A DNA stretch of 64,000 bases from Patiria pectinifera. Lineage: Eukaryota; Echinodermata; Asteroidea; Valvatida; Asterinidae. Position 1 is the stretch's first letter. Every line of letters begins with the position of its first letter. This document shows, piece by piece, positions 25,389 to 51,500 of this stretch. The notes below the pieces were generated by a model. That model was given only the letters and a program-made list of their open reading frames with translations, was not told the DNA's origin and made no database searches. A program made the position numbers and the translations under genes. The stretch spans positions 1,178,001 through 1,242,000 of the forward strand of contig CM057130.1 in NCBI GenBank assembly GCA_029964075.1. Direction: 5' to 3'.

Positions 25389-28300
25389 ATGGCATCCTCG
25401 GAGCAGCCTTGCTACACATTGATCAATTTCAACATGGACGTTGAACCACCAAATGAAATGACACTCAAGAATGACATTGGTAAGATGACACTCAAAGGGT
25501 TTTTGAAATTTGACATTTGTTTCCAGTGTTGAAAAATAACTGGCCTGTCATCATTTTATGTGTTCTAATTCTTGTTCAGCATGCCTACATGTACCTCCAG
25601 TACTAAAAATCCTTCTTCAATTCCATTGTTTGTTTTTCATAATTATAATAGGTACAATGTATGCTTTGTCCACGATTCTCACAATGTGACTATAGTAATT
25701 TTAATGGCTTTACATGTACATGTACAAATACATGAAGTACAAAACAATACTGGCCACTGAAGTGGAAAACATGGAGGAATTAAGTATATTGTTACAATTT
25801 TGGCATTGTAACTTTTGGCTAAGTAAATACACTGTAGTCATTTTTGGTTAAGTAAATAGATGTGTTTGCCAAGGGAAAGTGCATATGATGCCCTAGACCA
25901 GCGCTGATATTTTATTATGACTGATTGTGACGGGTGTATAATTGATTGTTTTTCCTCAGAAAATGGCGACACCAAAACCAGGACCGAATCCTTGAAGAAA
26001 CTGATCTACATGATACTGAATGGAGAGAAGATGCCGGGATTACTGATGTCTGTCATCAGATTCCTGCTGCCCATGACGGTAATAAGCCCGGTCAAAGGTC
26101 AAAACGGACCGCAAGGTCATACAGTCACCACCGCTTGCCTACCACAAGCAACAGTCAAGTGTCTTATGCGGCCACAGTGACCTTACAGTGAATTAAAAGT
26201 AGTTATGATGAAAGTACAAAGTGTCTACTCATGGGTATCACAGAGGAGCCAAGTACCTGTTATCAATCAATACAAGGTGTCTATTCATTGCCTAAACCCT
26301 TCAGTCCCTTCGAATCATCCCTCCAGATCTTTTAACCCTAACTCCCTTGGCCCTATTTGCTAGGAACCACCCTCAATCCTTCAAACTTCTCAAAAAATGT
26401 TGCGCTTATGTTCAAATGAAAGACACCCACTGCCTCAATCCTTCACAATCCTCCAACAGCCCTGCCTCTCAATATGCACTTAGCCTCAATCCTCCAAAGT
26501 CAACTGATACTGAATGTCCGTGTGCCCTTAATCCTCCACAATCCTCCAAATTTGTATGTTGCATGTAGCCTCAATCCTCCAAAATCCTTCAAAACTGCCC
26601 GGAGGACTTTTGAGGATTGAGGAGGTTTAGGGTAAATTTTTCCCCCCTTGGTAACGTGCTTTTTCCCCTGCTAGCATACATGTAAGGCATAAGATCACTC
26701 AGACATCTTCACTCATTCATCTAAGTTATGACACCATCTTCATATGGACCTCTCTGTTTAGGACCACACCATCAAGAAGCTTCTGCTTATCTTCTGGGAG
26801 ATTGTTCCCAAGACCCACCCGGACGGCAAGTTGCTTCAGGAGATGATCCTCGTCTGCGATGCGTACAGGAAGGATCTCCAGCATCCCAATGAGTTCATCC
26901 GTGGCTCTACTCTCCGCTTCCTCTGCAAGCTCAAGGAGCCGGAACTCCTGGAGCCGCTCATGCCTGCCATCCGTCTTTGCTTAGAGCATCGTCATAGTTA
27001 CGTACGACGTAACGCAGTCATGGCCATCTTTACCATTTACAAGTAAGATCCAAATAAATGAGGCTTTTGTTTTTGTCCTGCAAAATTTGTTGAAACGTAG
27101 TATTTGTATTGTGCTCTTTGTTTACAAACCAAATGGTGTCTAATATGAGTGGACTGTTTTGACAGTTTTGAACCAGAAAATTGCTTGATTTCACAGTTGT
27201 GTCTTTTCACCTATAAAACAAACCGGTAAGATGATTTTTGTCATTGAATTAACTTACTTTGATGTAAGATTTATTACATGTCTGCATTTTTCGGAATATT
27301 TTTTGGAGCAAAATTGTATCCAAACTGGGTTAGCCATAGACTTTTATCATGCTGCCATCATTTCAGTAATGTTCCCTGTATCCAATAACAGTACTGAATG
27401 ATAACGTTTGTTGTGCAAAAAGGAACCAGACTATTTTTCCTTCCAGCCTCGCGTTGGTTTCGTTGATTTGAATGGGAAAAAAATCAAGATGGCCGCAACA
27501 TGATAATGGTCTTTAACAGCTTTTCCAAACCCTGTTATCTCAATGTATGCAAATAACAGCTCCAAGCCAAAGTTTGATGTTTCCTTTGGAATATGACCCC
27601 CTACTTCGGAGCTAAACCATTCCTTCAGGAAAATGAAAAATGCATTCCTTCTTAATAATTCCGTATTTTCCGCTTTTTTTTCCTTCAAGGAACTTTGACT
27701 TCATGATCCCAGATGCTCCTGAATTGATCCATTCATTCCTTGAACAGGAACAAAATGCAATCCCCTTTTCCCGATTTACCATTTCATTCCTCATAGGAAC
27801 TTCTGCTTCCTGATCCTGGGTTTTCCTGAGCTGATTTCTTCCTTGAGGAGGAGCAAGATGCAGCCCCCTTTCGCAATTCCTTATTTTCCTTATTTTAGGG
27901 CTTTTTCCTTCCTAACTCTGACGTCCTTATCCTGGAAGCTCCTGAGCTGATCCACACATTCCTTGAGCAGAAAAAATACAATTCGGCTTTCACATTTCCT
28001 TGTTTTTCCTATTTACTATTTTTTTCCTTCAGAACTTTGACCTCCTTATCCCAAAAGCTCCCGAGCTGATCCACACATTCCTTGAGCAGGAAAACAATGC
28101 AATCCCCCTTTCACATTTCCTTATTTTCTTTATTTATCATTTTTCCCCAAAGGAACTTTGACGTCCTTATCCCGGAAGCTCCCGAGCTGATCCACACATT
28201 CCTTGAGCAGAAAAAAATGCAATCCCCCGTTCACATTTCCTTATTTTCCTTGTTTATCATTTTTCCCCAAAGGAACTTTGACTTTCTGATCCCGGATGCT

Positions 28301-31300
28301 CCTGAGCTGATCCACACATTCCTTGAGCAGGAGCAAGATGCATCCTGTAAGCGGAATGCCTTCATGATGTTGATCCATGTGGATCAGGACCGTGCCTTGG
28401 ACTACCTGAGTACTTGCATTGACCAGATTACGTCATTTGGGGACATCTTACAGCTTGTGATTGTGGAGCTGGTTTACAAGGTAAGTATTGTCAAAACTGA
28501 AATCAGTTGTCATGTTGTCAGCCCCGTACTAGGTCCACTGATTTTCCACTTCTCCAGTAAACGGAACATACTTTTGAGCAAGGAATTCAGATTTTTGTAA
28601 ACCCTACAATATGTGCACAAAAAAGAGATACAAAACATGTAGTTTCAGAAAGCACAGTGTACAGCTTTTGGCAATTTTGTGACATTTGTGAAAGAGAAAC
28701 TCAGTGGCTTTAACCTGAGCAATACAACATTATCAGAAAGAATCCAGTACAAAGTGTGGAATTTAAAAACGCTGGACCGAGCAGTGACGTGCCATTCCCT
28801 AACGTGCTGGCTCCCTGTACACTGTTTGCTATTTACAGTGGAAATAGGTCTCTCTCAAATGATGCATCGTTATTTTGGGCGTCAAATTTTCGTGACGCGC
28901 ACCGGCTGTGCCGTATCTCAAAGATATCGTGAGCAGCACGCGTGCGTGTTTAGAACACATTGCACATAGCGTGTACGCGCGTCTGATGGGGTTGAACACG
29001 CAGTTGTAATTTTCTACGAAGATGGCATCCAATTAGAGAGATCTATAAAACAACTGGAGTAATTGGAACCCTAGACCCAATTTCATGGAGCTGCTAAGCC
29101 GAAAAATATTGCTTAGGAAATGTATGTGCTGAGCGTGAACTAGTTGAGAACCAGTTAAAGACCATGTACATTGAATGAGATTTTGGCTGGCGACCTGATT
29201 TGGCTGAGCTGATAATTGACATGTTCACAGCTCCACAGATTTAGCCCCTGGTAGTTCTGTAGTCTTACCCTGCCAATAGTGACCTAAAGACTGTTTTTCC
29301 CCCCTAAACCCTAACCCCTTAGGCCCTTTTCTTGCTGGGAAACAATCTTCAATCCTCCAAAATCCTCCAAAATTTGCACTTATGTTCAAATGAAGGGTAC
29401 CCACTGCCTCAATCCTTCAAAATCCTCCAACAGCCCTGCCTCTCAATATGCATTCAGCCTCAATCCTCCAAAATCCTCTTGTTCATACAAACATGCAGCC
29501 CCAATCCTCTAAAATCAGCCTGCACTAAATTACCATGTGCCCTTTAATAATCCTCCAAATTCCTCCAAAACTTCAACTTGCATTCAGCCTCAACCCTCTA
29601 AAATTGTCTAAAAACCAGCCGGTTGATTTTGGAGAATTGAGGAGGGCTAGGGTTAATTGATTCTTGAAATGTTTGCACTGTAAAGGTGTGCCATGCCAAT
29701 CCGTCCGAGAGAGCTCGCTTCATCCGTTGCATCTACAACCTACTGCAGTCTTCTAGCCCTGCGGTACGCTACGAAGCAGCTGGTACCCTGGTCACACTGT
29801 CCAGTGCTCCTACTGCTATCAAGGTATGTAGGAACCAGCCAAGGATTTAGGAACAGGAGTCTTGATGAAACATCGATTTGGGCCTTTATTAAGTTTAATA
29901 GTTCAGATGTTTTGATGGTTTATGATCAACTGATGTCCAATATTTGTTGATTTGTAGGCCGCAGCGTCTTGCTACATTGATTTGATCATCAAGGAGAGCG
30001 ACAACAATGTCAAGTTGATTGTGTTGGATCGACTGGTCTCACTCCGGGAAGACCCAGCACATGAGAAAGTCCTGCAGGTAAGTGGCGTGTTGTCATTGGT
30101 CAACGTTTGAAGAGCTTGCACTTTTTTAGACTGGTGTTTGAGAATCGCACTGAACCAAATTATTCCAAAGATTTGAATTAAGTACATGAAATATTTTATT
30201 TTTGAATCAGTCGGGAGTGACTTAGTTGAAAGATTAACTGTTGCAGTTGTTCATAATAATTCTGGATTCCAGTCAAGGGAAGATTGAGGCATAAAGGTGG
30301 CTTGTTTGAAACCAAATTCTATTTGGGTAGACCTCAGTTGCTCCTAATACTATAAAGTTCAGCTTGACTCTGAAATGTCGATCTGAAAAAGGTGTTATTC
30401 CTGTTCATTTTTTAGCACTTTGCAGCGAATATTCCCACATAGAAACAGCATTGCAAAACTACTGTCACTAAGGAAAGGATATGCAATGTATTTCAAATGT
30501 GAACAGATATGTTGCAACAAAGCAAGACATTTCAAGCATACTGAGGTTTGAGATGCTTCCTTGCGCTGATGGAGTTTGTAATAAATGTCATTACGAAAAC
30601 AGATAATATTCAGAGAATCCCGTTGGAGTTTGCTGTAATAAACCTGGTTTGCAGGCTTTAGCTGTTTAATTCTAGTGGGATTGGCATTCAAATGTTGAAC
30701 ATAAGAAGGTCAGAAAAGTACAACTTCATGAATCTGACTTTGTAGGAATCATTGTGGATAATGTGAGTTCTCTCCGTCAAACACAGGAACTTGTCATGGA
30801 TATTCTGCGTGTGCTGTCCTCATCTGATTTGGAGGTCCGTCGTAAAACTCTAGACCTGGCCATGGATCTGGTGTCATCTAGGAATGTTGAGGAGGTGCGT
30901 TGACCTTGTGTCTAGTAAAATCTGTAAATTATTTTATGTGACTGCTAGAGTCTTAAAAAATACCAAGAAAGATTGTAAAAGGAACAAAGACAGTATCATT
31001 TAAGATATAGTAACATGGTTTTATCGTATGCTTTCATCGTTGACTCGGCATCAGTTGTTTGGGTTAATGAACACTATTTATCTGGACAATTTTAGATGAA
31101 TGTGACCACAAAAACTGTTGACTGGACTTGAGCCCAATGCAGCTTAATTCAAAAAGATGTAAGGCTGTGTCGTGGTTTCTTGGCTGTGGCTTGCATTCCC
31201 ATAGGATCTGTCCAGTTTGTAAAAGAAGACTCATTGTTCCAGTTCTTGGATACCGTTGGATTGAACAAGTTGCATATGTAGAGGGAAAGATATCTTTCAG

Positions 31301-34300
31301 ATGCCCTCCTTTTTAGGAACAAGCCATAGGATTTTTTTTTCTGAGTTGCAACTTTTTTGGCTTTGTTGATATTTTTAGATGGTTCTTGTGCTGAAGAAGG
31401 AAGTTAGTAAGACGCACAATGTGGGCGAGCATGAAGACACGGGGAAGTACCGACAGCTTCTAGTCAGAACTCTGCATTCATGTAGCGTCAAGTTCCCTGA
31501 CGTCGCTGCTCAGGTTATCCCATTGGTATGTATTGCTAGCTTTTTGTGTTGCATATAATTGAGTTATGGAAGTAGCGTTTTTTCCGTTCGTGACATCTTT
31601 GTGAAAATCATGCTTGCTTTCTTTCATCCGGCATTTTCAACAAGGCCAACCCAGCCGTCAAAATCAATCAAGTGACTGTTTTTAACAGTTGAGTGCTCCC
31701 TGCCTTCATAAAGCAGGATTGACTGGCTGTGATTGTTATGAGACCTGATATATGCCATGCTTTGACTGTAGGTGATTGATAAGCCAGCTGTGACTACCAG
31801 TTACCTGTTTTTGTCCGTTGATGGAATTTGACTAGTCACAGTGTTTATTGAAATATGATCGGACTGTTGGTGACTAGCCTGTGTAAAAGGCATGGCAGGG
31901 GAACAGGATTGAATTTTAGACTGTCTGTGACTGATCAAACAAAAGGAGGATTAATAGGATTATATATCCTTTTCTTCTGAATCGGTGAATCTTGTTTTCT
32001 TTTTCTTTCTTTTGTTTTTGGGTGTTTTTCAGACTTGTAATGGTTGACTTCCATTAAAAAAGGCACTCTGTCGGCCTATAATTTTGAAAATTTAGCAAAA
32101 GCGATTATACTAAACCAAAGACATGAATATTTTTTAAATAAGATACCACACTAAGGCCAAAAAAAATAATAAGTCGGTCTCTGGTCAGCGCGCGCGTCGA
32201 TTTTAATCATGCGCGTCAATCTTTTTTTTTCCAAAATGTTCCACGGTATTTACCAAAGAGCACCAAAGAATGGGAAATTGCACCAAGGCAAATGATTGAG
32301 AGCACCAAGGCAAATTATGGAGGACACCAATGTACATGAGGACACCAAAAAAGCAAAATAGTACCCCACCTTGTCTGTACAATCCAAGCTTGAAAAAAAA
32401 AAAAGCCGCGTTCCCGCATCATTTCCAGAACTTTGGTCTGACCAGAGACCGAATATTTTTTTTTTGGCCTAACATTGGTTTTTTTTTGCACTGTTACAGA
32501 ATGTAAAAATTCTCTGGTATTTCAGCAACTCATTACCACTCCTGCATTTGTGCATTGATTACTTTGTACAGTTGATGGAATTCCTGAGCGACACCAATGA
32601 GTTGGCTGCTGCCGACGTTCTTGTCTTCGTCCGTGAGGCCATCCAGCGTTTTGATCAACTCAAACCTCTCATCGTCACCAAACTCCTAGAGGTCTTCGCT
32701 TCCATTCGGACAGTCAGGTAAAGACAGACATGAAATCAGGCTGTATGTAATCATGCAAAGAAATGTCACCAGGGTTTGTTTACATGTATGCAAAAGCCAA
32801 ACGAACAAGGCAGACAATAGGCCTTTGCGATTCCCGCGTGATCACGGGGTTTCTTTATGGTGCCGCCCGAACGAGGAAGGCCGACAAGGGGCGGTTGTTC
32901 CATACTGTCAAAGGGGAATCTTCAAGTTTACGGCGGTTTCGCGTTCAATTCCGGTAGGCCTTCCATGTTTATTGTGATTGAAAATAAAACCCTGGAAAAT
33001 CCAATAAAAACCAATAAAATCCCCCCCCCCCAAAAAAATGCACTTACCAAATTAGATGAATCAATTTCAGAAAAGAACGATTCTGCTTGCCCCTTTGTTG
33101 GGTTGAAAGTCAGTTTATTGTTTTTTCTTTATTCTTCTCAATTACCAGACAAGTTTTACTGTTACCATACTGTCGTGACTTCATTTTAATTTCACGGAGA
33201 ACATGATTTAACTTTTTGAAGGCAAATGGATTTCAACAAGACTGTGGCCTGTGCATTAGCTACATAAACGATCCATGATGCATGTCGGCGAGTTTGCAAA
33301 AAATGCTGGTCGCTTAAGACGAGGTATCGGATATTACGAGGTATTGTCAGAAGTCCCATGGACCTCGTATTAACGAGAGTCGACTGTATAAGTTTGAAAG
33401 AAGTTTGTCTGCCTGATGCACCTAAAATCCACCTTAAGCCTAACCCTAACCGCCCTAAATCCTTCAAAATCCTCTTTGCCAAAGTGGAGGAATTTGGAGG
33501 ATTGAGGTTACATGGCAAAAATGCGTTACTGATTTCGTAGGATGCACTTTGTCAAGGTCTTGGGCCGGACCTTGTGAAGTTTTTGCTCAGCCATGCATAA
33601 ACATAGGCCTGGATTATGCTTGAAATCCTCCGTACTGCTCCAGGATGTCACAGGCCAAGCCTCAACATATTGACATTCACTGCCGCAGGATTTTGCAGGA
33701 TTCAGGCAGTGGTCACCCCTCTATGGACCATATTCAAGAAATAATGGAGGAATTTGCAGGATTGAGGCTACATGCTATTTTGCCTTGAGGCCAATTGGAG
33801 GATTTTTCAGGATTGAGGCCACATCCTTGCAAAAGGCCTAGGGAGTTAGGGTTAGTCCTCTTCATCGCTGTCATTTTTGCCAGTTTACTTCTTTACCAAC
33901 CCCACTTATGCCTGTCTTTACGTTCACGGATCCCATCTCCGTTTTGTCTGTAGGATCCACCGTGCAGCACTGTGGATCCTCGGTGAATACTGCACCACCA
34001 GCGATGAGATACAGAGCTTGATGAACGAGATCCGTAACTCCCTGGGTGAGATTCCTATCGTTGATGATGAAATGAGGAAGGCAGCAGGAGACGACACTGA
34101 GGGTAAGTGGGAGTGATCATTGATGGAAGGGTGTTCATTATTTGGTGTAATATCAAGCTTGCCATTGCTGGAAATTTGTTTGACTCAAATGTGAATGTTA
34201 ACCTTTTGGGGTTGTAAAAAGAGAGTGGAGAAACTTCACTTTGCAGTCATTTGGAATAGGGTAGCATTCTTTTTCTTGGAAAAATAAAATTTACAATTTC

Positions 34301-37300
34301 AAGATACATTTCAACAAAGGAAATGGACTACAATTGGTCTGTTACTCGCTGTCAATTTAGACGGTCAAAAAGCTTGTTGGTCTTCTTGGAATGTTGTTAT
34401 ACCGAACACCGCTATACCCAACATCGTCCTTGGCTCCCGATTTTTGTGTACAAACATGCTGAACATTGTTGTTGAAAATGTCAATAGAAAAGCACAAGTG
34501 GTTATTATTTCCCCAAGAAATAGAAGGGAAAAGCCACCGATTGTTGTTGGCAGTAAGCTCAAAAACTGTGTAATTACATAATTCCATAGTCAGCACGTGT
34601 TCAGAGTCATCTTTCAGTAACTACCGGAATACCAGGGCGTGCAGGTTGAAGTTCTGGAGGGCGCTATTTATTGTAAAGTGAGTACCTGAGCACCGGCAGC
34701 TTAAAATCGCTACACCGAACGATCACTATTACGGACAATTTCTGTGGATCCCGCGATGTTCGTTATAGCAGTGTTCCACTGTATTTATGAAACCTTCCTG
34801 CATGTCAATCAAATTAGATCATGACTTTTCTGGTCTGGTAACAAAGGTAGGTTGCTTAAACTTGGTCACCAGCACTGCAACAAACGTCCGCAAACCAAAG
34901 ATGGGTGGGTAAGATGGGTGGCCAAATCTGGAAGAGTTGATTTCCATGTTTGCCTAATGTTCTTTTCTTGCAGAGGAGTCTATCGTTATCTCCAGTCAGA
35001 AGCGTCAGTTGACAGAGATGGGAACCTATGCCACACAGAGCGCGCTCAGTTCAGCTGCTCCCAAGAAAGAAGTCGAAACAAGGTGGGCAACGAGTCAGAG
35101 AATAGCTGGAGTATCAGATCAGCATGTCTCCTTGAATAACTCTAACAAAAAGTCAATTTAAATATTTGCAAGCGGCAGTGCAGGCCCTGTGTTTTTGTAT
35201 ATTCTAGCAGTTGGCCAGAAGACCACAGAGAAGGAGTAGTCACATCACAAAGCTGTCAGTGAAATCATTGTGAAGTCGTTGCCTGCTGTTATATATGAGG
35301 TCAAGTCTTTCAGTGTGTGTAGGGATAATATAGGTCAAGCCCAAGAATTCGCGTACGCTGTGTCCCATACATAACAAAAGTTTAACCCTCTAAGATATTC
35401 ATTGATTTGGCTGTGCTGTTTATTTTGCTGTTGGGCATCTGCAAGGAGAATACCCGCAAGAATATTTATGTTGAAAGTCCTTGCGATTATCATCTAATTG
35501 AAGCAAACATGGCATTACGTATTGTTAGTGTGAGTGACTTCATTGTTCGGATAATCATTTTAAATATTTCTGTTTTCCAGACCTCCATTGCGTGGTTTCT
35601 TGATGGATGGGGATTTCTTCGTTGGAGCGTCTCTGGCCACTGTACTGACTAAATTAGCTCTCCGCTTCATTGGTCTCAACACGAATGTCAAGAGGCAAAA
35701 TGTACGTTCACATTGATGAAGTTAATTGTAACATGATCGTATACCCTGCTTTTTAATGCATATGTGGAGATAATGACATTTATCTTGAACAGTGATTATT
35801 TATTCGTTGTAGTTATAGAGAGTTTTGGTTTCAAGCAGTAACTGCTGAGTAGACTCTGTTGCCTGTGCATTCAGAGCATAGAGCTGATACTTTGATGTTG
35901 CATTAATTGATATTAAAGGGAATATACATCATTTGCTTTTGCTGTAATTTTCAGAAATGGATGGAATTGTGGGGGTTGGAAATATATAGCAAATATAGTT
36001 ACACTGACTTTATTGAGGTTTTGGGTTCGAAAATGCTATAAAAACCAAGAAAAACAATCATTTTCCTGTAGTCTGGTTCCCTGACTCCATATAAGAAGAA
36101 ACAGAGCAGTTTACATACATTGGTAGCTGGCTTGTACCCGTTGATAGGTGTGTAATCGATTGCAAACAAGTGTGATGGTCAATTGGGGCCAGTATTTGAA
36201 AAAAGCCAGTTTTTTTCCAACGCTGGTCGGCCAACCAGCGTTGGAATTGATACAAAAATACCACTTTTCTTGAAAATGACAGTATACCAGGCGCCATGAT
36301 TTTACAGGATGCGTTACACTGTCATTCACTAACAGTCCAGCAAGGTATTTTAAAATGATTTGGTAGTTTTATTTTTTGATGTTTGCAAATGTTGTATTTT
36401 CCCTTTAACCTTCCTAGAACGAAATGTGTATGTGAACCTTGTGCAAAATTGGCATGCAATAATTAAAACAAAAATGGAAAGACAAAACTTTAGAACGTCT
36501 TTGATTGTTTCCTCTTTTGTTATTTTATTTTATTTCATTTTCAGACTTTCTTGGCAGAGTCTATGCTAATCATGGCAACGGTCATTCATCTTGGAAAGTC
36601 TGGACTTGCCAAAAATGTAAGTAAAATGAAGAATGTTTTGACACACTGTTGTCAGACTTGTCCATGTAATTGTCCAAATTCAAAAGATCTCAGCATCCCT
36701 TCAGAACATTTTTTTTTTGCAATTATAGGTATCTTGCTTTACAGACATTGCTTATAACTTAGATAAGCCACAATTTGGTGTAACTTTTGTGCGTTACATG
36801 CATAATTGAAGTGATAATTTCATGTTTGTCAATTTAATTGGTTTCAGAACATCACGGACGATGATCTAGATCGTATCGCCATGTGTCTGAGGGTACTCGC
36901 TGAGCGACATTCACTCATGTCTGAGATCTTCACTAACGATTGCCGAAACTCACTTCAGACGCTGATTCTGACTAAACAGGCCGAGGAAAAAGAACAACAG
37001 AAGGTGAGAATAAAAAAAAAGGAAAGAGATCAATCAGACTATGGGGCATGCTCAGAGAAGGGAGTCCAAACATTTGTGACCCGCTCCAGGAAAAGGTGAT
37101 ATAAGTCGCGCTGTGCCTTTACGTGTAAAGGCCTGCTGAAAGTTTAGAGAGTGAAATTTTCCCTCAAAATCTGAATTCCTTTTTATGTCTTAAGTGGCAT
37201 CTTTGATACCTAAAGTTTAAGGATTCATTCACAGAAATGTTGATTTCGATGAATAAAGTGAAAAAAAATAACCTTATTTTGTATGCATTGTTCCCTTTTT

Positions 37301-40300
37301 TTTACATCCAAAAACTATAATTTAATCAATATGCAAATTAGCCAAAAGATAGTAATCTGCTTTCAAAAAGTCTCGTTTCCCCAAAAATCATTGAAAATAA
37401 TCATTGTAGAATCACTATCCAAAGTTTTAAGGTGATAATAAAACAGGAACATGTTGGTTGCTAAGATATTCAAAGTGAGCTTTTCATGCCCAAATCTACA
37501 ACAGAGCCAGTTATTTCAAAGCCTGTTTTCTCAGTTGTGTAATTTGAACTCCATGGAACTAATTAATATGCAAATTTGTTATATCTCCACAACGAAAATG
37601 GCTATACAGCTGTATCATATACCAAATGAAAGCTTACATTGTGGGCTTTCCAGTCGTGTATATAACTTGAATTTTAATTTTTACGACTTTATCACCTTTT
37701 CCTGGAGTGGGTCACATTTGTTGTTGAATTTCAAGATGCCATTTAATAACTGTTTGTCAAATATTTTTGTCGTACAAACATGTATCTCCAGCTCTGAGTT
37801 ATCCCTGGTTGCGATTTCCCAGAATTGCAGCAATGGTTATGTTGCCAGCATCATTACTTTTTGGCTTTCTCTTGTAACAATAAATTATTCAATTTTGACT
37901 TGGGGTGGTTCACCATCCAAATGCGACAAACTGCTCATTGTACTGCAATGAGCGGTCCGATTAATATCTCATGCTGGTTATCGTGATCATTCCATTTTGA
38001 GTCTTTTACAATTCAATGACCTGTACTGTTTTAATTTTGGCAAATTTATGTATAGATTTGTAAATAATACATTACCTCCTTGTTTTAACTCTCCTTTACA
38101 TTAACCTGTGGCATTCGTTTGTATACTACCCGAAGCACTAGTGCGACATATTTCTATGTCCAATTTAACAGAACGACGTTGTCCAAAAATTGTGTTATAC
38201 AGCGTGACACTTTATACTGGAACAGCTTAGATGACTCCTTAAAAATCATCATTGAATCAACCCTCCTTCTTTATATTTGCAAAAAACCTGAAAGCTCATC
38301 TTCTCGATTTATGTTCACATAATTAGTTATAATTTATGAACTTAGTTTTATGCTCTCACCAGTTTGTCTATTATGTTTGTTCATATGAGAATGTAACACT
38401 CTATGCACAATGGCAACATTGAAATAAATGTTTTAACTAAAAAAAAAATCATGGCATGTACGCGTGATAGCATCCGACTAGAGCCCCACAAACTAAAAAA
38501 TTGACATTTTGGTGATGCCGCCAGTATAGTGCTGGATAACTCAAGTTGATGAAAGTGCCAACATGCATTCTAGAGGTTATGGGTTCAAATCCTTACCCTG
38601 TTATTTTATGAGAATTTCCGTTTGGATGATTGTGTCGTGTAGGGGTTAGACAAGAAGCTAGTCTCCGTTCAAGCTGATGATCCCATCAACTTCCTCCAGC
38701 TGCTGGCCAAGGCTGATAACGGTGGGACAGAGGTAAGCATTGTTGTGATATTGAAAGAAATTAGGTTATGTATCTGGAATTAACCTATTGAGTTCCAGGC
38801 AAGATTTGTCCGTTCTTTACACTCACATTAATAATGGTATAAGTTGACCAAGATCTTAATTCCATCAAGCCATTATTTTGGGTTTGTTGGTGGAAATTTG
38901 ACTGCATTAGTGTCTTTCTGTGCTTGCTATTGAGATATGCAAATTAAAAAGGGCCTCCCAAATTGACTGATTTAAGAAGTGTAGATGTTGTGTCTTAGAG
39001 TTCTACGTACCCACTTAATGTGCCATGGCATCCATAGATTGCATGGAGTGAGTAGGGATTTATCACTGTTTTTTTCTTTTCTGTGATCAGGATCAACTGA
39101 CGATGAGTTTATCTCTCGCTACCATGGGAACCACAGGCAAGAAGGAGTTACATGACATCAGTGCATCCAAGTTGAGCAAGGTGCGCTACACAAGCAGCTG
39201 CTTGACCCCCTGGCCCTCTCTAGACACCCAGCTGAATCCAGCTAACTGGTTTTGCACTTTGGTGTGGAACTGGGCCCAATTTCACGGCGCTGCTTAACAG
39301 TTAGCAGAAAAGTTCTGCTTAGCATAGCAGAAAAATGTGCTAACCTTAAACACTATTTCACGGCGTGTGTGAGCTAACAGTCGCCCGTGCATGGAGATTT
39401 CTATTGTTACGTCACTAGGTTAAACAAATTTTTCCTTTAAGGTAAGCGTGCCTTTTGCTGTGCTTATGCATACGGTCTCCATGAAATAGACGGAGGCTCT
39501 CTTAGCAGAAAATCGTGTGCTTAGCAGCGCCGTGAAATTGGGCCCTTGTCATCCTAGGCCTATCCCTAAACCAGTGACATTTAAATTTATTTTGATTTAT
39601 TTGGGTGAATTCATCAAATTACTTGGCCACAGGTATTCTCAGAGCCCTGTGTGTGCTGAGGTATAAATCATTTGATTTTATTTGATTTGGCTGATCAGGT
39701 TACCCACAGTGTCAGATATTTTCTACTACACGATGAAACAATAATTAGATTTCATTAGATTCATCAGGATCCAGTGGACGTGTTTCTCTGATCCCATGTA
39801 TGTTGAGGCATACATCAGTATTGTGACATTTAACCTGACATGATCTGATTTGATTGGGATCAGATTTGATTTGGATCAGACATGATTTAATTTTGATTTG
39901 ATTTCGATAAGGTGACCCAGTTTTCTCTGACCCTGTGAATGACATGGCATATTTCAACATCCAGTCAGTCGCTGGCATGATTTGATACAAATTGATTTGG
40001 TTTGCTTTAAATTGACTTGATTCCTCAGGTGACCCAGCTGACAGGTTTCTCGGACCCAGTATATGCTGAGGCATACATCAACATCAATCAGTATGACATC
40101 GTGTTAGATGTCTTGGTTGTCAACCAGACTGCGGATACACTGCAAGCATGCTCCTTGGAACTTGCCACACTCGGTAAGTCAAAACAAACAGTACAGCTCC
40201 TTTAACCCTAACTCCCTAGGGGGTGTGCAAAATCGTATTGAATTTGGAGGATTCAGGACTTTTAGGGCTCTGAAAAGACTGGAGAAATTCTTCCAGCAGT

Positions 40301-40592
40301 TGAAATTCAATCTCCGGGGAAATTTAAGACCAATTAAGTTAAGGCCAAAAAAAAAAAAAAGTTTCTGGTTCTGCGCGTGTCGTGTGCGCCATGCATGCGC
40401 GTCGGCAAAAAAAAAAAAAAAAATTTTAAATAAGATGATGTCTCAAAAAAATCCTGCTGCTGCACAATTTTAGCGTTATTTAGATGGGGGATTTTTCGAT
40501 GGGGTTATGATCGAATAAACTCTCTGGCTCTCTTTCCCCATATATTTTTTTTTGCACTAAGTTTAGTCAGGCAGGATTGCAGTCATCAGGCG

Positions 40593-40631
<39 letters not shown>

Positions 40632-43629
40632 ACTTTTCCAGCAACTTTTTCCATACCACCAACGACTTTTTTTTTTTGGCCTAATGAATCAATTATAAAT
40701 TAATTTGCTTTCAGGCCACTTGATTTCATTCAAACATGATAAATCCGAGGAGTTTTATGTTTTTGCCGCTCCTCAAAACAGGACATTCCTGCTGAGTGCT
40801 CCAAAATTAATTGACATACTTATCGCCTTCAACTCGGTTAACCCCAAAATTCATACTTACCCTTCCCATATCCCTCGAAATCCACCTCATAAAGTGTTAA
40901 GAGGATAAGTGTTAATAAAAAGTGGAACGTTTAGAAAACCCAGAATTTGAATTGTTTTGCTTTTCTAGGTGACTTGAAGCTGGTGGAGAAGCCTCAACCA
41001 ATCACGCTGGCTCCTCACGACTTCTGTAACATCAAAGCTAACGTCAAGGTGGCCTCTACAGAGAATGGAATCATCTTTGGTAACATCGGTAAGCTTTATG
41101 TTTCTTCATAAAGATGAGAAGTCGGAGGGATGGCGGCAAGTTTGAAGCGAGCTTTAAAGCACCTTCCATGATTAGTTTCCTTATGCTTGACTGGAATAGT
41201 AAAGACACACTGTAAAATCTTATTCATTGAATTGCAGTGATCGACTTCTGCATGGATTATATTCTGGCCTCTGTTACATGATATGGATCATATATTTTAA
41301 TGATGTCATCAGGGGCGGATCAAGGAATATTTGCAGGGGGTCACATTATTGTTCATGTATTTCTGTGACAAAAAAACACAAATTTTACTCAGAGCTGGGG
41401 GGGGGTGGTGTTTCAACTCCCCCCCCCCCCTCTGGATCCGCGCCTGGTCATGATCAATGCATCTTAATTGTTACCAGACATGCAACTTTTCCCTCGGATC
41501 CGCTGATCTCTTTGTTTTTCAATTCACACTTATGCCATTAAACATTGAAAAACACTGTACAAAGTTTTGTAAAGATTGGAGTTCCCTTTTTTTGTTACTT
41601 CCAAGTTGCGTGCCTGTGCTACTTCAGATTTAGTGGAACTGCAGTAAGCAAGAAAAAAATAAAGACATCTAATGCTGAGGCTTCCTCTGAATGCCGTGCA
41701 AAATGTCAATTTTGGACGCTCCATCTATACAAGTTACAGGCTTACTTGTACAGCGTACATTCAGGCCCATTCATTGATGTGGTTTTTGACATTCTGAAAT
41801 CATAATTTTTTTAACTGCTGATGTTTCTTGAATTTTTTTTTGCAGTCTATGATGTGTCTGGTGCTGCAAATGACCGTAATGTCGTTGTCCTGAATGATAT
41901 TCACATTGACATCATGGATTACATCGTCCCAGCATCTTGCACTGATCAAGAATTCCGCAGTATGTGGGCCGAGTTTGAATGGGAAAATAAGGTAGGCTCG
42001 GAAGTATTTGATAAAAATGGCCTGTTTTTGTATGGGATTGAAATAACAGTGTTTTTTCTTCTTGTTTCTTCATGGTTTCTTTATTTGACTTTGAAAGCAT
42101 TGAATTCCAATATCAGATGCGATTCTCAGGTGAAAAAATTCCTTTTTCTTAAATTGAATTTGAAAAAGTATTTTGGCGTTGATAAAACATGTCGGTGATG
42201 CTGATCTGTTCACTGACGGTTTGATGATGAACACCCTAACCCCGTTTGCATTTTTGTGGTTTTGTAGGTGACAGTCAACACCAACATCACAGACCTACAT
42301 GGGTACCTGAAACATGTCCTCAAATCAACAAACATGAGATGCCTCACACCAGAAAAGGTAGGCGTTCAAATGATTGCTTTTGTGACTAACGTTCGTTGAA
42401 CAGCTTTGTTTCCTTATTTGCTTTGGTTTGATTAGTACGGTAGAAATGGATTCCCTTATTTGACTAAGATTAGTTCCCAGGAATCTTTGCTATTTAACTG
42501 ATTCCTTCATATTCTGGTTTTGGTTTGAAGTTTTGGAAAACAAGGTGAGGACACGACTCTGAACAATTGAGCTATCAGTTGGTTAAGAACCTGTCAAGGT
42601 GACAGTGTTACCCTCCTATTACAAGACACAAAATTACCAAATTTACTTATGAAACTGTACTAGTCAGTTTATTAATGTTCATTGGTTTGATTGTGAACAC
42701 ACATTTGAGTTTTAACCCGTCACCCTTAAAACTTACAGATAATATACAACATGTGCTTTTGCTGTAATTTTAACAAAATAGAGGGATTTGGGGGTTAGTA
42801 TTTTATAGCAAATATTGTTACACTGGCATGTTTAAAGTTTTGTGTTCATAGATGCTGGAAATACCAAGGAAAAAAATGCTGTTCTTGTAAAGTGGTCCCC
42901 TGACCCCATTTCAGAGAAAACGGAGCAATTTATTGTCAGGTCAGGGAACCAGACTAGCTGACTTGCACCCGTTCCTGGATGTGTAACCCATTGCAAACAA
43001 AATGTGGACTAATTAAATTTGGTAAATTGTGAGCAGTATTTGGGGAAAAAAGTCAGTTTTTTCCCAACGATGGTCGGCTGACCATCGTTGGAAATAGATA
43101 CAAAAAGTCCACTTTTCTTGAAAATGACAGCACACCAGGTGTCATGATTTCAGAGGATGCTTCAGACTATTATTCACTTACAGTCAAGTAAAATATTTCA
43201 TAATAATGATTGTAGTTGTATTACCTTTAAGTAATGACTACCCACCTGGATGTGAACCTCTAACCATCTGTAATTCATGACTACAGATTAGGTTGTGAGC
43301 CTGTTACCATCAGATTACAAATCCTGAGTGCCTGCGTTATCCCACGTTCCCGTACCTATCATTTCATTGTGTGATACGCATCATCAATCTGATATCTCGT
43401 ACAGGCTATCTCGGGAGAGTGCGGCTTCATGGCGGCCAATCTCTACGCCCGGTCCATCTTCGGTGAAGACGCCCTGGCTAACGTTAGCATTGAGAAGCCG
43501 GCCAGCGCTACCCCAGAGACACCCGTCACTGGTCACATCCGCATCAGAGCCAAGAGCCAAGGCATGGCTCTCAGTCTCGGGGATAAGATCAATCTGAGTC
43601 AGAAGAAAGATGCTGGATCCAAATCTTAA
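25389..43629 (+). CDS. COPB1: COPB1, coatomer subunit beta (beta-COP), 21 coding exons, complete
   Basis: Exons: 25389-25479, 25960-26078, 26762-27042, 28273-28480, 29686-29823, 29958-30077, 30787-30894, 31379-31525, 32572-32717, 33954-34102, 34974-35082, 35581-35701, 36545-36616, 36848-37003, 38643-38732, 39091-39180, 40029-40173, 40969-41088, 41846-41991, 42268-42357, 43405-43629. Phases join to 2871 nt, 956 aa; human beta-COP is 953 aa. It is a core subunit of the COPI coat for Golgi-to-ER and intra-Golgi transport. The N-terminal adaptin-like helical solenoid (about residues 15-540) includes [18 protein letters not shown] and DYLSTCIDQ. The C-terminal appendage (about 715-956) includes [27 protein letters not shown] and [20 protein letters not shown]. 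Family identity is unmistakable across every exon. Two exons are preceded by arrays of decayed copies of themselves (27690-28272, 39618-40028). AATAAA at 43808 is a candidate poly(A) signal. Confidence 0.98.
26331..26635. repeat. CCTCAATCCTCCAAAATCC-type dispersed repeat, short form
   Basis: The interval starts TTTAACCCTAACTCCC, contains many CCTCAATCCTCCAAAATCC units, and ends with mirrored GGAGGTTTAGGGTAAA. Similar short forms lie at about 29305-29660 (COPB1 intron 4) and 47970-48378 (upstream of INCENP). It is related to the longer form at 33441-33854 and 51089-51490. Confidence 0.75.
27690..28272 (+). pseudogene. Array of five decayed tandem copies of COPB1 exon 4 (5' end plus acceptor)
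   Basis: Copies start at 27690, 27797, about 27913, 28032 and 28153; the functional exon starts at 28273. Spacing is 107, 116, 119, 121 and 120 bp. Each copy has a pyrimidine-rich tract, an AG (lost in the third), then exon-like sequence resembling AACTTTGACxTCCTTATCCC and CTGATCCACACATTCCTTGA. A remnant of a sixth may lie at about 27610-27665. No copy keeps the exon's 3' part or a donor. The last copy has an upstream acceptor context (TTTTTCCCCAAAG) identical to the functional one and is open in frame through to it. Confidence 0.9.
31650..31960. repeat. About 300-bp dispersed repeat, COPB1 copy
   Basis: This stretch in COPB1 intron 8 matches about 61035-61350 in an INCENP intron in the same orientation. 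Shared words include CTTTGACTGTAGGTGATTGA, AATTTGACTAGTCACAGTG and TTGGTGACTAGCCTGTGTA. Many CAGT/ACTG-type words give it a self-complementary look. Its class is unknown. Confidence 0.75.
32152..32472. mobile_element. 321-bp inverted-repeat element, TAAGGCCAAAAAAA ends, copy 1
   Basis: The left TAAGGCCAAAAAAAATAATA and GGTCTCTGGTCAG are mirrored at the right by CTGACCAGAGACC and TTTTTTTTTTGGCCTAA, giving arms of about 35 bp. It lies in COPB1 intron 8. A second, poly-A-expanded copy lies at 40340-40684 in intron 17. Confidence 0.82.
33441..33854. mobile_element. TAACCCTAAC-bounded element, long form, copy in COPB1 intron 9
   Basis: It begins TAACCCTAACCGCCCT and ends AGGGAGTTAGGGTTA, so the terminal inverted repeat is TAACCCTAAC plus a few bases, compatible with a TA target site. 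The interior contains repeated GGATTTTGCAGGATTGAGGC words and CAAGGTCTTGGGCC. Sister copies: 51089-51490 (opposite orientation) and a diverged one at about 1348-1760; a fragment lies at 40203-40290. There is no coding content. Confidence 0.82.
35913..36408. mobile_element. TTAA-bounded element, copy 2
   Basis: It has the same TTAAAGGGAATATACATCAT start and TTTTCCCTTTAA end as 6214-6721, and is bounded by TTAA with different outer flanks. The internal hairpin CCAACGCTGGTCGGCC/AACCAGCGTTGG (36217-36244) is nearly perfect. It lies in COPB1 intron 12. Confidence 0.88.
37077..37714. mobile_element. 638-bp inverted-repeat element, TGACCCGCTCCAGG ends, 6-bp duplication
   Basis: The left end TGACCCGCTCCAGGAAAAGG is mirrored by CCTTTTCCTGGAGTGGGTCA, giving about 25-bp terminal repeats. 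CATTTG flanks both ends (37071-37076, 37715-37720). The interior is AT-rich and noncoding. It lies in COPB1 intron 14, immediately upstream of a LINE fragment. Confidence 0.85.
37820..38450 (+). mobile_element. 3' end of a non-LTR retrotransposon (reverse transcriptase C-terminal remnant)
   Basis: Across several disrupted frames, the pieces read in order [52 protein letters not shown] and [14 protein letters not shown]. This is the usual C-terminal layout of CR1/L2-type and related LINE ORF2 proteins (YGILVWG-like motif, QKRAIRLI-like helix, GKFMY, LWNSLP-like motif). Stops and frame changes show it is dead. It ends with an A-rich tail at about 38437-38448. It lies in COPB1 intron 14 in the sense orientation. 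Confidence 0.75.
39272..39545. mobile_element. 274-bp inverted-repeat element, GGGCCCAATTTCACGGCGCTG ends
   Basis: GGGCCCAATTTCACGGCGCT is mirrored by AGCGCCGTGAAATTGGGCCC, and internal TTAGCAG/CTGCTTA words repeat. It lies in COPB1 intron 16, just downstream of exon 16. A diverged relative (CCCAATTTCATGGAGCTGCT) starts at about 29075. Confidence 0.85.
39618..40028 (+). pseudogene. Array of about four decayed copies of COPB1 exon 17 (5' end plus acceptor)
   Basis: Copies are recognisable at about 39618-39665, 39700-39735, 39759-39830 and 39902-39970; the functional exon starts at 40029. The third copy is clearest: GATTCATCAGGATCCAGTGG followed by TTTCTCTGATCCC, TGTTGAGGCATACATCA. The fourth has AGGTGACCCAG, TCTCTGACCCTGTG and GGCATATTTCAACATC. 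Spacers are rich in TTGATTTGATTT. Stops and lost splice signals show they are not coding. Confidence 0.82.
40340..40684. mobile_element. TAAGGCCAAAAAAA element, copy 2, with expanded A-runs
   Basis: It begins TTAAGGCCAAAAAAA and ends TTTTTTTTTGGCCTAA, and contains GCGCGTGTCGTGTGCGCC near the left, like the GC-rich part of the 32152-32472 copy. An A-run of more than 30 bases lies at 40597-40630. It lies in COPB1 intron 17. Confidence 0.75.
41310..41446. mobile_element. 137-bp element, CAGGGGCGGATC ends, direct GTCAT flanks
   Basis: The left CAGGGGCGGATC is mirrored by GGATCCGCGCCTG. GTCAT occurs directly on both sides (41305-41309, 41447-41451). The ends resemble hAT-type termini although only 5 bp of duplication is visible. 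It lies in COPB1 intron 18. Confidence 0.75.
42726..43230. mobile_element. TTAA-bounded element, copy 3 (diverged)
   Basis: The order of features matches the copies at 6214 and 35913: ATATACAACATGTGC start, GCTTTTGCTGTAATTTT, AGGGAACCAGACTAGCTG, the hairpin CCAACGATGGTCGGC/TGACCATCGTTGG, and TTACCTTTAA end. More divergence suggests an older insertion. It lies in COPB1 intron 20. Confidence 0.78.
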
Positions 43630-46600: not shown

Positions 46601-48570
46601 CGGCGGGGCATGCAGGGTGCACCGGCAGAAAAGTGCGGTGGGCAACTGCACTGCCATGACTGCTAGTATTAGTCCAGGTTGGACGACGTCTTCATGCAAA
46701 TTTTGCATTACACAACCTTGGCTACTGCACTGCATGCTGTCAATGTGCAAACATGGCAAAGTTAGAAGAAAAATTTATTTTTGCGTGATTTTCCGATTTT
46801 ATTTTCAAGTGCAAAGTGAACCCTTTGAAAATGCCCCGAAAAATATGGAAACAAATTCTGACAAACGTCTGGCTAGGTTACTTTTTAGGTATGTAAATAG
46901 AGATGATAATTGTTTATCAGAATTTATCAAGTTTACAGAAATTCTTAAATGTTTATTTGGAATTTTCTGAGATTTATTTAAGTGCGCCACGTTAGGTAAC
47001 ACTCGGCATGTTCGGCCAATTTGCGGACGCCACCGTGTTTGAATTTTGGATTAAATTTTATGAAACCGAACTTGTTCACAGAAGTTAGGCCTAAATAGCA
47101 AGCATTAATAAGGTAAAGTACCGGTATTTTACTACATGAATTTGAGGTTTGTCAAGAAAGAGGTTTGGCAACAATAAAAGTTTGGGAAAGATTTCCATAT
47201 ACGAAGTTCATTCAACACCCTGTGTACAAACCCTAATGCTTGTATTTTTTCACTGCTCAAATTGACTTTGATGACATGAAATTGCTATTTGGGGGCTTGT
47301 TAGTCAATACAGAGGAAAATTAGTGAACTTCGCATATGGTAATATCTTGCCAAAGTTTGGCAAGGAAAGTTGGGTAAGCTTCGAAGTGCGCCACGTTAGG
47401 GAACACAACTACATGTATACAGGAATACAAAAGTACAATAAATACAGCATTACACTACAGCCTAGGTCAACTTGTCACATACACCATGGAGGAAGGAACA
47501 CATGCGAACATGTGGCGAACCAACTCGTACACTACCAACTCATCACAGGACAAAAATCGTATTCAGTTTGGGGTAATTTTTTGGCGATCGTGTAGGCCTA
47601 CAGGTGGTTGATGTCTTGACAAATTTTCCCAATTCTAAAATTATTTAACTGAAAAACTAGTAGTAAAGTGCTGATAAAATTGTAATGTGGTCGATGATTC
47701 TCGACTCTGTCCAATCTGGCAACGGTATAGCGTTCAATTAAAATTAGCTAATTTCGTCCCGCGTACGAATTGGCTGGGATACAGTTTTTCCCCATATTTT
47801 TGTCAGTTTTGTTTGGTTTTACGTCAATCCTTTGCTTTGTGAATGATTCACAAAGCAGTACTGCATAACGACTAAAATAATATGAATAAAAATGATGATT
47901 TTGGCAGCTGTGTTGAGGTCAGTTTCTCAACGGGAAAGCACCCCAATACATGCAACACCTCATATCACCTTAATTTAATCAATCCTCCAAAATCCTCCAA
48001 AATTTTGCAACTCCGACTAAATTTTTCAAAATTGTCAGACAGTCCTGCCTCAAAATGCATTCATCCTCAATCCTCCAAAATCCTCCTCATCCCAAAATTT
48101 TGCACTCGTGTTTAATTGAAGGATAAACCAACGCCAAATCCTTCAAAATCATCAGACAGTCATGCCTCAAAATGCATTCATCCTCAATCCTCCAAAATCC
48201 TCTTGTGCTTCAATCACCATTCATCCTCAATCCTCCAAAATCCTCATGTGCTTCAATCACCATTCATCCTCAATCCTCCAGAATCCTCATTTGATTCTAT
48301 CACCATTCATCCTCAATCCTCTAGAATCCTCCAAAACTGCCAGGAGGATTTTGGAGGAGTGAGGTGGGTTAGGGTTGGTCAACTAGGTTCTAGTGATGCA
48401 CACTTGCTTGTGGTTCCATCTTCAAGGTTGAAGAACTGAGAAGACCACCTGGAGGGAATCTTGAACTCGTTATTGCTGATGGCTCGTGAAGCTCATACGA
48501 AGACGCCATCGGTACAGTTCTTGCACAGTCCATAGTGCCACTAACATACTTTGTCTGATTTTGTTTTCAG
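43630..48570. other. COPB1-INCENP intergenic region and INCENP upstream intron
   Basis: The first part is the COPB1 3' UTR (AATAAA at 43808). A small hairpin with ATTCTATTT/AAATAGAAT arms and a GAAGCCGAGG loop lies at 44345-44435. A CpG-richer stretch at 46200-46400 carries a plausible INCENP promoter. A 127-codon open frame at 46587-46970 has no recognisable domain. A 25-bp palindrome TGCTTTGTGAAT-g-ATTCACAAAGCA is at 47833-47857. CCTCAATCCTCCAAAATCC repeats fill 47970-48378. Confidence 0.6.
46245..46367 (+). promoter_or_regulatory. Candidate INCENP promoter (TATA-like, CCAAT, CHR) and noncoding first exon
   Basis: In order: TATAAAA at 46245, an inverted CCAAT box (ATTGG) at 46284, a CHR-type TTTGAA at 46308, and a GCAG|GTACGT donor at 46365/46366. 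The INCENP start-codon exon begins after an acceptor at 48570, so a noncoding first exon is required upstream; this is the best candidate. CCAAT plus CHR is the known arrangement of G2/M genes controlled by NF-Y and DREAM/MuvB, and INCENP is a mitotic gene. Function is inferred. Confidence 0.45.
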
Positions 48571-48589: not shown

Positions 48590-51500
48590 ATGTCAGCACC
48601 AACTACAATGACAATGGGGGAACTGCCAGGATTCTCCCTTCATCTGGCCACCACGGCGAAGATCAAGAGCTTTGATGAAGCGTTTGAGGAGAATATGACA
48701 TGGCTACAAGAAGTGTTGGAAGACGCAAAGAAACAGTTTGGAAGGTAAGATGCGACAACAGCCTAGGGCAAGTTCGCGCAAGGACTATAGTTAACCATTG
48801 GTCGACTAACGCTTGCCCGAACTCTGTCTAGTCGACGATGGTTAACTACGCTAGTCGACTATTTGGAACCAACCTACTGGGGCTGGTTGCTTCGCTGGTA
48901 ACCATAGCCACGCGCGTTCATAACGTACAGCAGGGAGCCAGGATCCAGACATTTTGCAATTGTGACCAGCGTTCGACTCGCACTTTGCTATTAGTGCGCA
49001 GGCGTAAGGTACGTCACAAATCAACCACTAGTCGACTAATGGTCCTTGCCCGAACTTGGCCCTAGAAGTCATTATGCCACAGGTACACCGTACAAGTGCA
49101 AGTACAGCTAGAAGAATACATTTGTGGATTAACACATGGCATTTTGTTAATGCATGTTTAAGTCGTGTTATAGATTGATAGTTTGCACACCCAAGATATA
49201 GATACAGCTATAGGCCTTAAAAAATGCACCTTTAATGTGACATCACACAACTCACATTTCATGTGATGATGTCGTAAAGGACGTTGTCTTTGTAACTTAA
49301 AATTAAAAGTGAAAACCTTCTGATTGACTTTTTATGCCCCGCGGCGAAGCCGAAGGGGCATACTGTTTCCGCCTTGTCCTTCCGTGGGTGGGTGTGTGTG
49401 TGTGTGGGTGTGTTAGTGGGTGGGAGTTTGTGTTACATACCCTATGTGGACTTGTGAACAAAAGAGGTCCACATAATGCAGGTTGTGTTAACCTTATGTG
49501 GACTAAGCCGTGTCCACATAAGGTTTTGCCCTTTCTGGAAAACAGGTTTAGAGGCATTTTTGGGTTAGGTTTATCTGTAGCAGAATGAAGAGAAACACTA
49601 TAGGGAATCATAGAAAAAATATTGGGTTAAAAGAGTTTTCACAGTTTAAGTAAAGTGATTTTTTGTACCGAGTTTTCTTAACTACACGAAAACAAAGCAA
49701 TGTCCACACAAGGTATGTAACACACGTCTGGGTGTGCGTGCGTGTGTGTGTGTGTCCGGATAAATCTTGTCAGCGCGATAACTTGAGAAATACTTAACAT
49801 ATGAACTTCAAATTTGGTTTGTGTATTGTTCTTGGTAATCCTAAGAACCCTTTTGCATTTGGGGCCGAAAGGTCAAGGGTCAAGGTCACAGTGACTAAAA
49901 CAAAAGAAATTTTGTCAGCGTGATAACTTGAGAAATACTTTACATATGAAATTCAAATTTGGTTTGTGTATTGTTCTTGGTAATCCTAAGAAGCCTATTG
50001 CATTTGGGGCCGAAAGGTCAAGGGTCAAGGTCACAGTGGCTGAAACAATAGAAATTTTGTCAGCGCTATAACTTGAGAAATACTTTACATATGAACTTCA
50101 AATTTGGTTTGTGTATTGTTCTTGGTAATCCTAAGAAGCCTATTGCATTTGGGGCCGAAAGGTGAAGGGTCAAGGTCACAGTGGCTGAAACAATAGAAAT
50201 TTTGTCAGCGCGATAACGTGAGAAATACTTTACATGTGAACTTCAAATTTGGTTTTTGGATTGTCCTTGGCAACCCTAACAAGCCTATTGCATTTGGGGC
50301 CAAAAGGTCAAGGGTCAAGGTCACAATGGCTAAAACAAAAGGAATTTTGTCAGCGCGATAACTTGACAAATACTGAACATGTGAACTTCAAATTTGGTTT
50401 GTGGATCATTCTTGGTAATCCAAATAGGCCTATTGCATTGGGGGTCAAAAGGTCAAGGGTCAAGGTCACAGTGGCTAAAACAATAGAAATCTTGTATTTA
50501 TTCTGAGAGCAAAGGGATTAGGGATTAATTCATATAATACCTACAGAAGACACTAATGCTGTCAATGAACGTTCCATGTGACCAAGGTACATAAAATGAT
50601 GTTAAAAGAGTGGTGTTATGTCGTGGGAACAGTCACGGTTGCGGGGCATTTGTGTTTGTAAACACACCTGACTTGTTTTGTTTTTTTCTTTACATTTGGC
50701 AACAGAGAGGAAATGGCCATCTTTCCCAAGACCCCGGCCATGCGGAGAAAACGCCAGCGAATCCGAAGGGTCTCAGCCATACACGATGAAGAAACTGAGA
50801 ATCAACCGCCAGTTAGGAGAAAAAGGTCAGCCATGGACTATAGTTGAATCTTTCTCTTAGAAAGATAAGTTGGAGGGTTCGGTTTAGAATTACTTAGAGT
50901 TCATCATGTACTCAAAACCCAATGATCGTTTTTTGCTACATTGAGAATCGTTTTTGCAAAACCCAAGATTGATTTACATGAAGAATGAAAACAAATTGTG
51001 GAACATCAGTGTCATGTCCAGATTCCATCAAACTAGTTAAAAGCTGGGGATAGGATGTCGGAAGGATTTGAAGTACACAGGGTTACTTTAACCCTAACTC
51101 CCTAGGCCTTTTGCCGGGATGTAGCCTCAATCCTGCAAAATCCTCCAATTGGCCTCATGGAAAAATAGCATATAGCCTCAATCCTGCAAATTGCTCCATT
51201 TCTTCAATATGGTCCGCGGAGGGGTGACCACTGCCTGAATCCTGCAAAATCCTGCAGCAGTGACTGTCAATATGTTGAGGCCTGGCCAGTGACATCCTGG
51301 AGCAATACGGAGGATAATCCTGGCCTATATTTGTGCATGGCTTAGCAAAAACAACACAAGGTCTGGCCCAAGACCTTGACAAAGTGCATCCTATGAAATC
51401 GGTAACGCACTTTTGCCATGCAACTTCCATCTTCCACATTTCTCCACTTTGGTAAAGAGGATTTTGAAGGATTCAGGGCAGTTAGGGTTATTACATATGT

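Follow-up and report, generated by a model that had tools for sequence, protein, structure and literature searches.

Exon 4 of the beta-COP gene (COPB1) of the starfish Patiria pectinifera is preceded, 120 nt upstream, by a second site that resembles its own acceptor. This raises the question whether the upstream site gives rise to a longer protein or is a decoy that splicing has to pass over. COPB1 is an essential gene. Its product, as predicted from the window (the whole stretch of 64,000 nt that was analyzed), contains the Pfam domains Adaptin_N, Coatamer_beta_C, and Coatomer_b_Cpla, and the part encoded by exons 3 and 4 aligns without gaps with the coatomer beta sequences 9qpq_H and 5a1u_G. 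The features discussed below are collected in Table 1.

Two acceptors and a row of repeat units before exon 4

The original prediction had placed exon starts at 28153 and 28273, and had described the bases before them as identical, the interval between them as open and in frame, and the upstream copy as the last decayed one of exon 4. This description proved correct. Upstream of the two acceptors, precisely 20 consecutive nucleotides are identical; read on from exon 3, the interval contains no stop; and five units precede the real exon, the copy at 28153 being the nearest to it. Splicing from 27042 to 28153 would keep the full COPB1 frame open and result in 996 aa. Both acceptors are preceded by TTCAC with its A 40 nt 5' of the respective exon start; for the real exon 4, this branch-point-like A is found at 28233. 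The expression "perfect decoy" is justified for the 20 nt before the cut but not beyond them. Likewise, to speak of a "handful" of differences between the two exon starts is correct within the first 57 nt, where there are 5, whereas 8 mismatches and 2 gap positions are counted over 73 nt. Half of the 40-residue insert is translated intron. The openness of the insert says little, because 35% of the trials in which the intron half was shuffled also gave open inserts and because a length divisible by three has a 1-in-3 chance.

The five decayed units occupy about 27650-28272 of intron 3. Each consists of an intron tail of 40-50 nt followed by the front of exon 4, and none represents a whole exon because only ~70 of its 208 nt are copied. 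When the five units and the real one were compared with a common profile, which had been built from the same six units, nhmmer returned E values of 4.6e-26 to 3.4e-36; TRF reported a 120-bp array at 27864-28330 with a score of 608. The likeness of the six units is beyond chance. Successive exon starts are spaced by 107, 116, 119, 121, and 120 nt. The AG at the corresponding place is present in C1, C2, C4, and C5 and missing in C3. Read singly from exon 3, each of the five units is free of stops, but only C5 has a length that is a multiple of three. In a search of the assembly (613.5 Mb, 1020 contigs), the array had a single DNA match among the matches listed, namely itself.

Table 1. Positions in the window of the COPB1 features and of the copies of exon starts. 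A slash marks the splice cut.
Feature	Position	Strand	Remarks
COPB1 (beta-COP) coding region	25389..43629	+	21 exons, 956 aa, without stop or frameshift
COPB1 exon 3	26762..27042	+	ends in phase 2; donor AA/GTAAGA after 27042
Possible older remnant	27604..27648	+	nhmmer E 0.18 only; sits where one more unit is expected
Unit C1	27653..27765	+	acceptor ...ccttcaag/gaac; exon-like start 27690; nhmmer E 7e-29
Unit C2	27757..27868	+	acceptor before 27797; exon part hit by deletions; nhmmer E 4.6e-26
Unit C3	27869..27985	+	AG of homologous acceptor gone (cct/aac); nhmmer E 1.7e-30
Unit C4	27989..28107	+	acceptor ttttttccttcag/aac; exon-like start 28033; nhmmer E 2.4e-31
Unit C5	28109..28227	+	exon-like start 28153; TTCAC with A at 28113; nhmmer E 1.9e-34
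In-frame segment added if upstream acceptor is used	28153..28272	+	120 nt, 40 residues, no stop
COPB1 exon 4, real	28273..28480	+	208 nt; acceptor ccccaaag/gaac; donor AAG/GTAAGT
Far decayed copy of exon 17 start (second COPB1 mirage)	39758..39818	+	AG before 39768; blastn E 7.2e-07
Nearer decayed copy of exon 17 start (second COPB1 mirage)	39866..39970	+	AG before 39912, 117 nt upstream
COPB1 exon 17, real	40029..40173	+

Other classes of duplication were considered and rejected. For a processed retrocopy or a dispersed repeat, the DNA search gave one match, the array itself, and the protein search gave six at E 0.001 or better, all of them at this locus (among the matches listed); a retrocopy recording the spliced form was likewise not found among the DNA and protein matches listed for the assembly. 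Duplication of a mutually exclusive or cassette exon does not fit, since the copies hold the ~70-nt front part and not a complete exon with its donor; a second match to the donor boundary of exon 4 was not detected in the window at E 0.01. NAGNAG-type tandem acceptors do not apply either, as the two sites are 120 nt apart and each has a separate TTCAC.

History of the units and ranking of their acceptors

The resemblance of the two exon starts had been taken as a sign that the duplication was recent, an argument that did not withstand closer comparison. Aligned exon-first, as exon part plus following tail, the unit 28033-28152 matches the unit 28153-28272 with 112 identities, 7 mismatches, and 2 gaps. 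This is better than the match of C5 with the real exon 4 in the acceptor-first register, for which 106 identities, 13 mismatches, and 2 gaps were counted. The C3 unit shares 97 identities with the C4 unit and 100 with the C5 unit. Over 73 nt, the exon part of C5 has 68 identities with that of C4 versus 64 with exon 4, and the intron tails 5' of C5 and 5' of exon 4 have 42 of 45 nt in common. Judging from these alignments, the last event most likely duplicated the live acceptor plus a piece of exon that by then differed from exon 4. With the copied fragment most likely divergent from the outset, the likeness of the exon starts does not date the last event. Pairs among C3, C4, and C5 share 62-68 identities over 73 nt, pairs with exon 4 share 58-64, and in the 57-nt comparison C3 shows 6 differences each from C4 and from exon 4. 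A faint trace of homogenization within the array may be present.

The exon parts were also compared for silent changes. Between C1 and exon 4, 6 of the 8 differences are silent and 2 change an amino acid, which gave p values of 0.027, 0.053, or 0.074 depending on the transition weight, uncorrected for four copies; this excess of silent differences is borderline and was not taken as evidence. No excess was found for C3, C4, or C5 (p values of 0.21 or more), and C2 was excluded from the counts on account of its deletions. The codon positions of the variable sites were distributed 5/2/8 (p = 0.17). As an observation in its own right, C1 (27690-27747), the oldest clear unit, has retained a good acceptor and a near-perfect coding sense, and its differences are mostly silent.

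Acceptor strength was assessed with a position matrix derived from the 19 remaining acceptors of COPB1. On the basis of only these 19 sites, 28273 and 28153 each scored 4.9, 27690 scored 6.4, 27797 scored 3.3, and 28033 scored 12.4. The C4 acceptor at 28033 is the top-scoring one in intron 3 and exceeds 19 of the 20 real COPB1 acceptors in a leave-one-out comparison; the acceptor of the real exon 4 ranks sixth lowest among these 20. Since 28033 outscores 28153, the latter is not the strongest decoy. A stop would be met 41 residues after splicing to 27690, after 51 residues with 27797, and after 12 residues with 28033. Only 3 of the 48 upstream AGs in intron 3 (28087, 28090, and 28153) keep the whole frame open, and 28153 is the sole unit acceptor whose use spares the frame. 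Use of 28033 or 27690 would truncate the product, so that, if they are recognized at all, the gene would have to favor the 3'-most site or lose output. For 28033, any recognition would mean that something already stops this site from winning. Located inside a decayed unit, this best-scoring acceptor of the intron is a possible poison splice site.

Decoy or isoform

Tandem repeats across an intron-exon boundary have been described as mirage minisatellites in the lancelet genes for Adh3, the globins BflGb6 and BflGb9, troponin C, and PGBD5 (PMC3087553, PMC3902484; these and all further sources are cited from excerpts). In BflGb6, the 3' end of an intron and the 5' part of an exon are repeated in 6 or 3 units of 150-160 bp with 81-100% identity (PMC3087553). 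Either boundary can be repeated, and splice signals are retained in many units, not in all (PMC3087553, PMC3902484). RT-PCR in a lancelet case suggested normal splicing (PMC3087553), and mirages with intact splice signals reportedly leave splicing undisturbed (PMC3087553, PMC3902484). The mirage features considered were boundary-spanning units, partial retention of signals, concerted evolution with exclusion of the cluster edge, copy-number polymorphism or somatic instability, and undisturbed splicing. The two anatomical ones are seen in COPB1: like the lancelet mirages, the array spans the intron-exon boundary, and splice signals occur in many but not all units, most of which have the AG. Unlike the lancelet mirages, it resides in an echinoderm and in COPB1, its spacing is 107-121 nt, its units are more decayed, and the frame continues without a stop through its last unit. 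Exclusion of the cluster edge is at most weakly indicated. The acceptor at 28153 is best read as belonging to the most recent unit in a minisatellite of the mirage type, a structure already known, here in a phylum probably other than that in PMC3087553 and PMC3902484.

We consider it probable that the five decayed units constitute such a minisatellite and that their acceptors are decoys which splicing mostly ignores. The repeated segment would have combined 40-50 nt from the end of intron 3 with ~70 nt from the beginning of exon 4 and would have gone through several rounds of tandem duplication, for which slippage or unequal crossing-over is the probable mechanism. The final duplication would have comprised the exon fragment and the intron tail next to exon 4, so that the live acceptor was copied exactly, and the real exon 4 would retain the normal protein. 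The reason why splicing would mostly ignore the upstream acceptors may be that a complete exon follows the 3'-most one alone. Low-level leakage is likely at 28153, since this site alone among the unit acceptors spares the frame.

Related arrangements have been reported. As in COPB1, a natural tandem array includes a splice site in the intron 18 VNTR of ABCA7, where a cryptic donor retains exactly one unit; unlike COPB1, the donor side is concerned, the array is made of 25-bp units numbering from about 12 to 427, and retention of one of them causes a frameshift (PMC5954066). Laboratory pre-mRNAs have likewise been made with two acceptors separated by part of an exon, but they differ from COPB1 in being engineered globin transcripts that were spliced in vitro: with 14, 55, or 205 nt of proximal exon, only the distal one of the duplicated 3' splice sites was used, and this inefficiently (PMC5389562). 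Intron gain by tandem duplication likewise involves partial exon duplication with splice signals, but the COPB1 copies lie within an existing intron and create no new intron position (PMC2891723). A partial BRCA1 exon duplication that also duplicates splice sites (PMC11839443) left our reading unchanged, as did PMC12480690.

The main alternative is that 28153 is regularly used and that 40 extra residues are inserted into the N-terminal helical solenoid of beta-COP; we regard this as unlikely. One HEAT-like repeat is about 40 residues long, approximately the length of the insert. The equality of 28153 and 28273 in 20-nt context, score, and branch-point-like site supports use of the upstream site, as does the in-frame interval without a stop, and the equal scores and branch-point-like sites count against a decoy. 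Where alternative 3' splice sites are separated by 20 nt or more, the upstream one is preferred overall, which points in the same direction; in the excerpt, this preference is significantly reduced, not shown to be reversed, if both flanking introns are large, and the closing statement is that exon definition favors sites closest across the exon (PMC9225289). The introns flanking exon 4 measure 1230 and 1205 nt. Regular use of 28153 is, however, disfavored by an insert that is half translated intron, by the lack of any insert at the exon 3-4 point in the three aligned solved beta-COP sequences, and by C5 having no excess of silent changes relative to exon 4 (3 of 5, p = 0.24-0.38). An AlphaFold prediction for the insert plus exon 4 (109 aa, without alignment) gave a mean pLDDT of 56.7 with most of the insert below 50 and decides nothing. 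A decoy at 28153 that is mostly ignored and perhaps leaky is favored over a live isoform, because of the undisturbed splicing reported for lancelet mirages and because the truncating acceptors 28033 and 27690 lie upstream.

It appears improbable that 28033 and 27690 serve regulation by giving stop-containing mRNAs that would lower COPB1 output under some condition, with 28153 as a by-product. The scores of both sites, that of 28033 being the best in the intron, and the stops that follow them would suit such a role, but the units decay without clear upkeep, as is evident from the lost AG of C3 and the damage to C2. Collapse or expansion errors during assembly are a very improbable source of the extra units: tandem arrays are error-prone in assembly and there is one assembled copy only, but the units are too diverged, even the best compared full-length pair (C4 and C5) differing as given above and other pairs being less similar, whereas an assembly duplication would yield near-identical units.

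With the upstream acceptors read as decoys, intron 3 holds a natural series in one essential gene, consisting of an exact 20-nt duplicate acceptor, a better-scoring decoy whose use would run into a stop, and several sites that have decayed, each of them 5' of the same exon. It would thus represent a natural competition test of splice-site choice, the choice between identical sites being otherwise studied in engineered transcripts (PMC5389562, as excerpted). An echinoderm case would extend mirages beyond lancelets, as judged against the excerpts of PMC3087553 and PMC3902484 alone.

Copies of exon borders elsewhere in COPB1 and in the assembly

Up to 700 nt of each of the 20 COPB1 introns was scanned for copies of the adjacent exon borders. 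Copies of exon starts were found in two introns (3 and 16), and copies of exon ends in none, with one intron tying with the shuffle maximum. In the second mirage, the start of exon 17 is repeated in two copies, both decayed. Their local scores of 56 (far copy) and 51 (nearer copy) compare with maxima of 29 and 25, respectively, in 500 shuffles; the nearer copy runs into an in-frame TGA after 8 codons.

In a wider survey, whole exon matches were compared with 1495 nt on each side, and the score was again set against the shuffle maximum. By this procedure, COPB1 was positive in 2 of its 21 exons. For the other loci, the 30 matches with the highest scores were taken from sets of 42 and 61, a non-random sample that includes near copies of each other and long open matches besides single exons; one of the 30 adaptin loci, L007, is the window itself and was excluded. 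Two of the 30 CCT-family loci exceeded the threshold (L046 upstream, 45 versus 28; L066 downstream, 132 versus 24), as did 1 of the 29 adaptin loci. The latter, L024, is a short match of 24 bp with a score of 33 versus 26, which was judged to be chance and rejected as a mirage. Mirages were accepted at 2 of 59 loci outside COPB1, both in one gene: L046 and L066 are 5.4 kb apart on G000 contig C1 and apparently belong to a single gene, which we take to be CCT3-like. At L066:1651-2100 (about 4.227 Mb), the exon end and donor are repeated downstream, making this a donor-side mirage. Two of the downstream copies retain GTAAGACAT donors, and either one, if used, would meet a stop. At L046:1368-1457 (about 4.233 Mb), an acceptor-side copy of the exon start ends 44 nt before the exon match, and the AG at the corresponding place is absent.

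If the structures in the two genes hold, cryptic splice sites, and possibly new introns, would arise from mirages more widely than is apparent from the lancelet papers alone. Only tentatively do we extend this to a general picture, in which mirages would not be peculiar to lancelets but would form recurrently in this echinoderm genome, at acceptors as well as at donors, essential genes would repeatedly be exposed to exact duplicate splice sites, and at COPB1 exon 4 the 3'-most site would normally win, with 28153 leaking into a beta-COP longer by 40 residues.

Several minor observations were made along with the survey. CCT-family matches occur in two parallel sets on G000 contig C14 (14.696-14.705 Mb and 14.841-14.852 Mb), and so do adaptin-family matches on G000 contig C1 (28.854-28.861 Mb and 29.087-29.094 Mb). 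These sets, roughly 140-230 kb apart, are either recent duplications or unmerged haplotypes. Consistent with an echinoderm host, the assembly gave one match to bindin, an echinoderm gene, at E 1.0e-33; 0 matches were obtained for COX1 and for the GFP family, the latter in a search whose control likewise gave no signal. Within the window, CCTCAATCCTCCAAAATCCTCC-like stretches recur in COPB1 introns 2 and 4 (26290-26620 and 29280-29640) and, as a 43-bp array, 3' of COPB1 at 48175-48331. Another tandem array, with 5.1 copies of a 145-bp unit and 92% matches, is located at 49762-50495.
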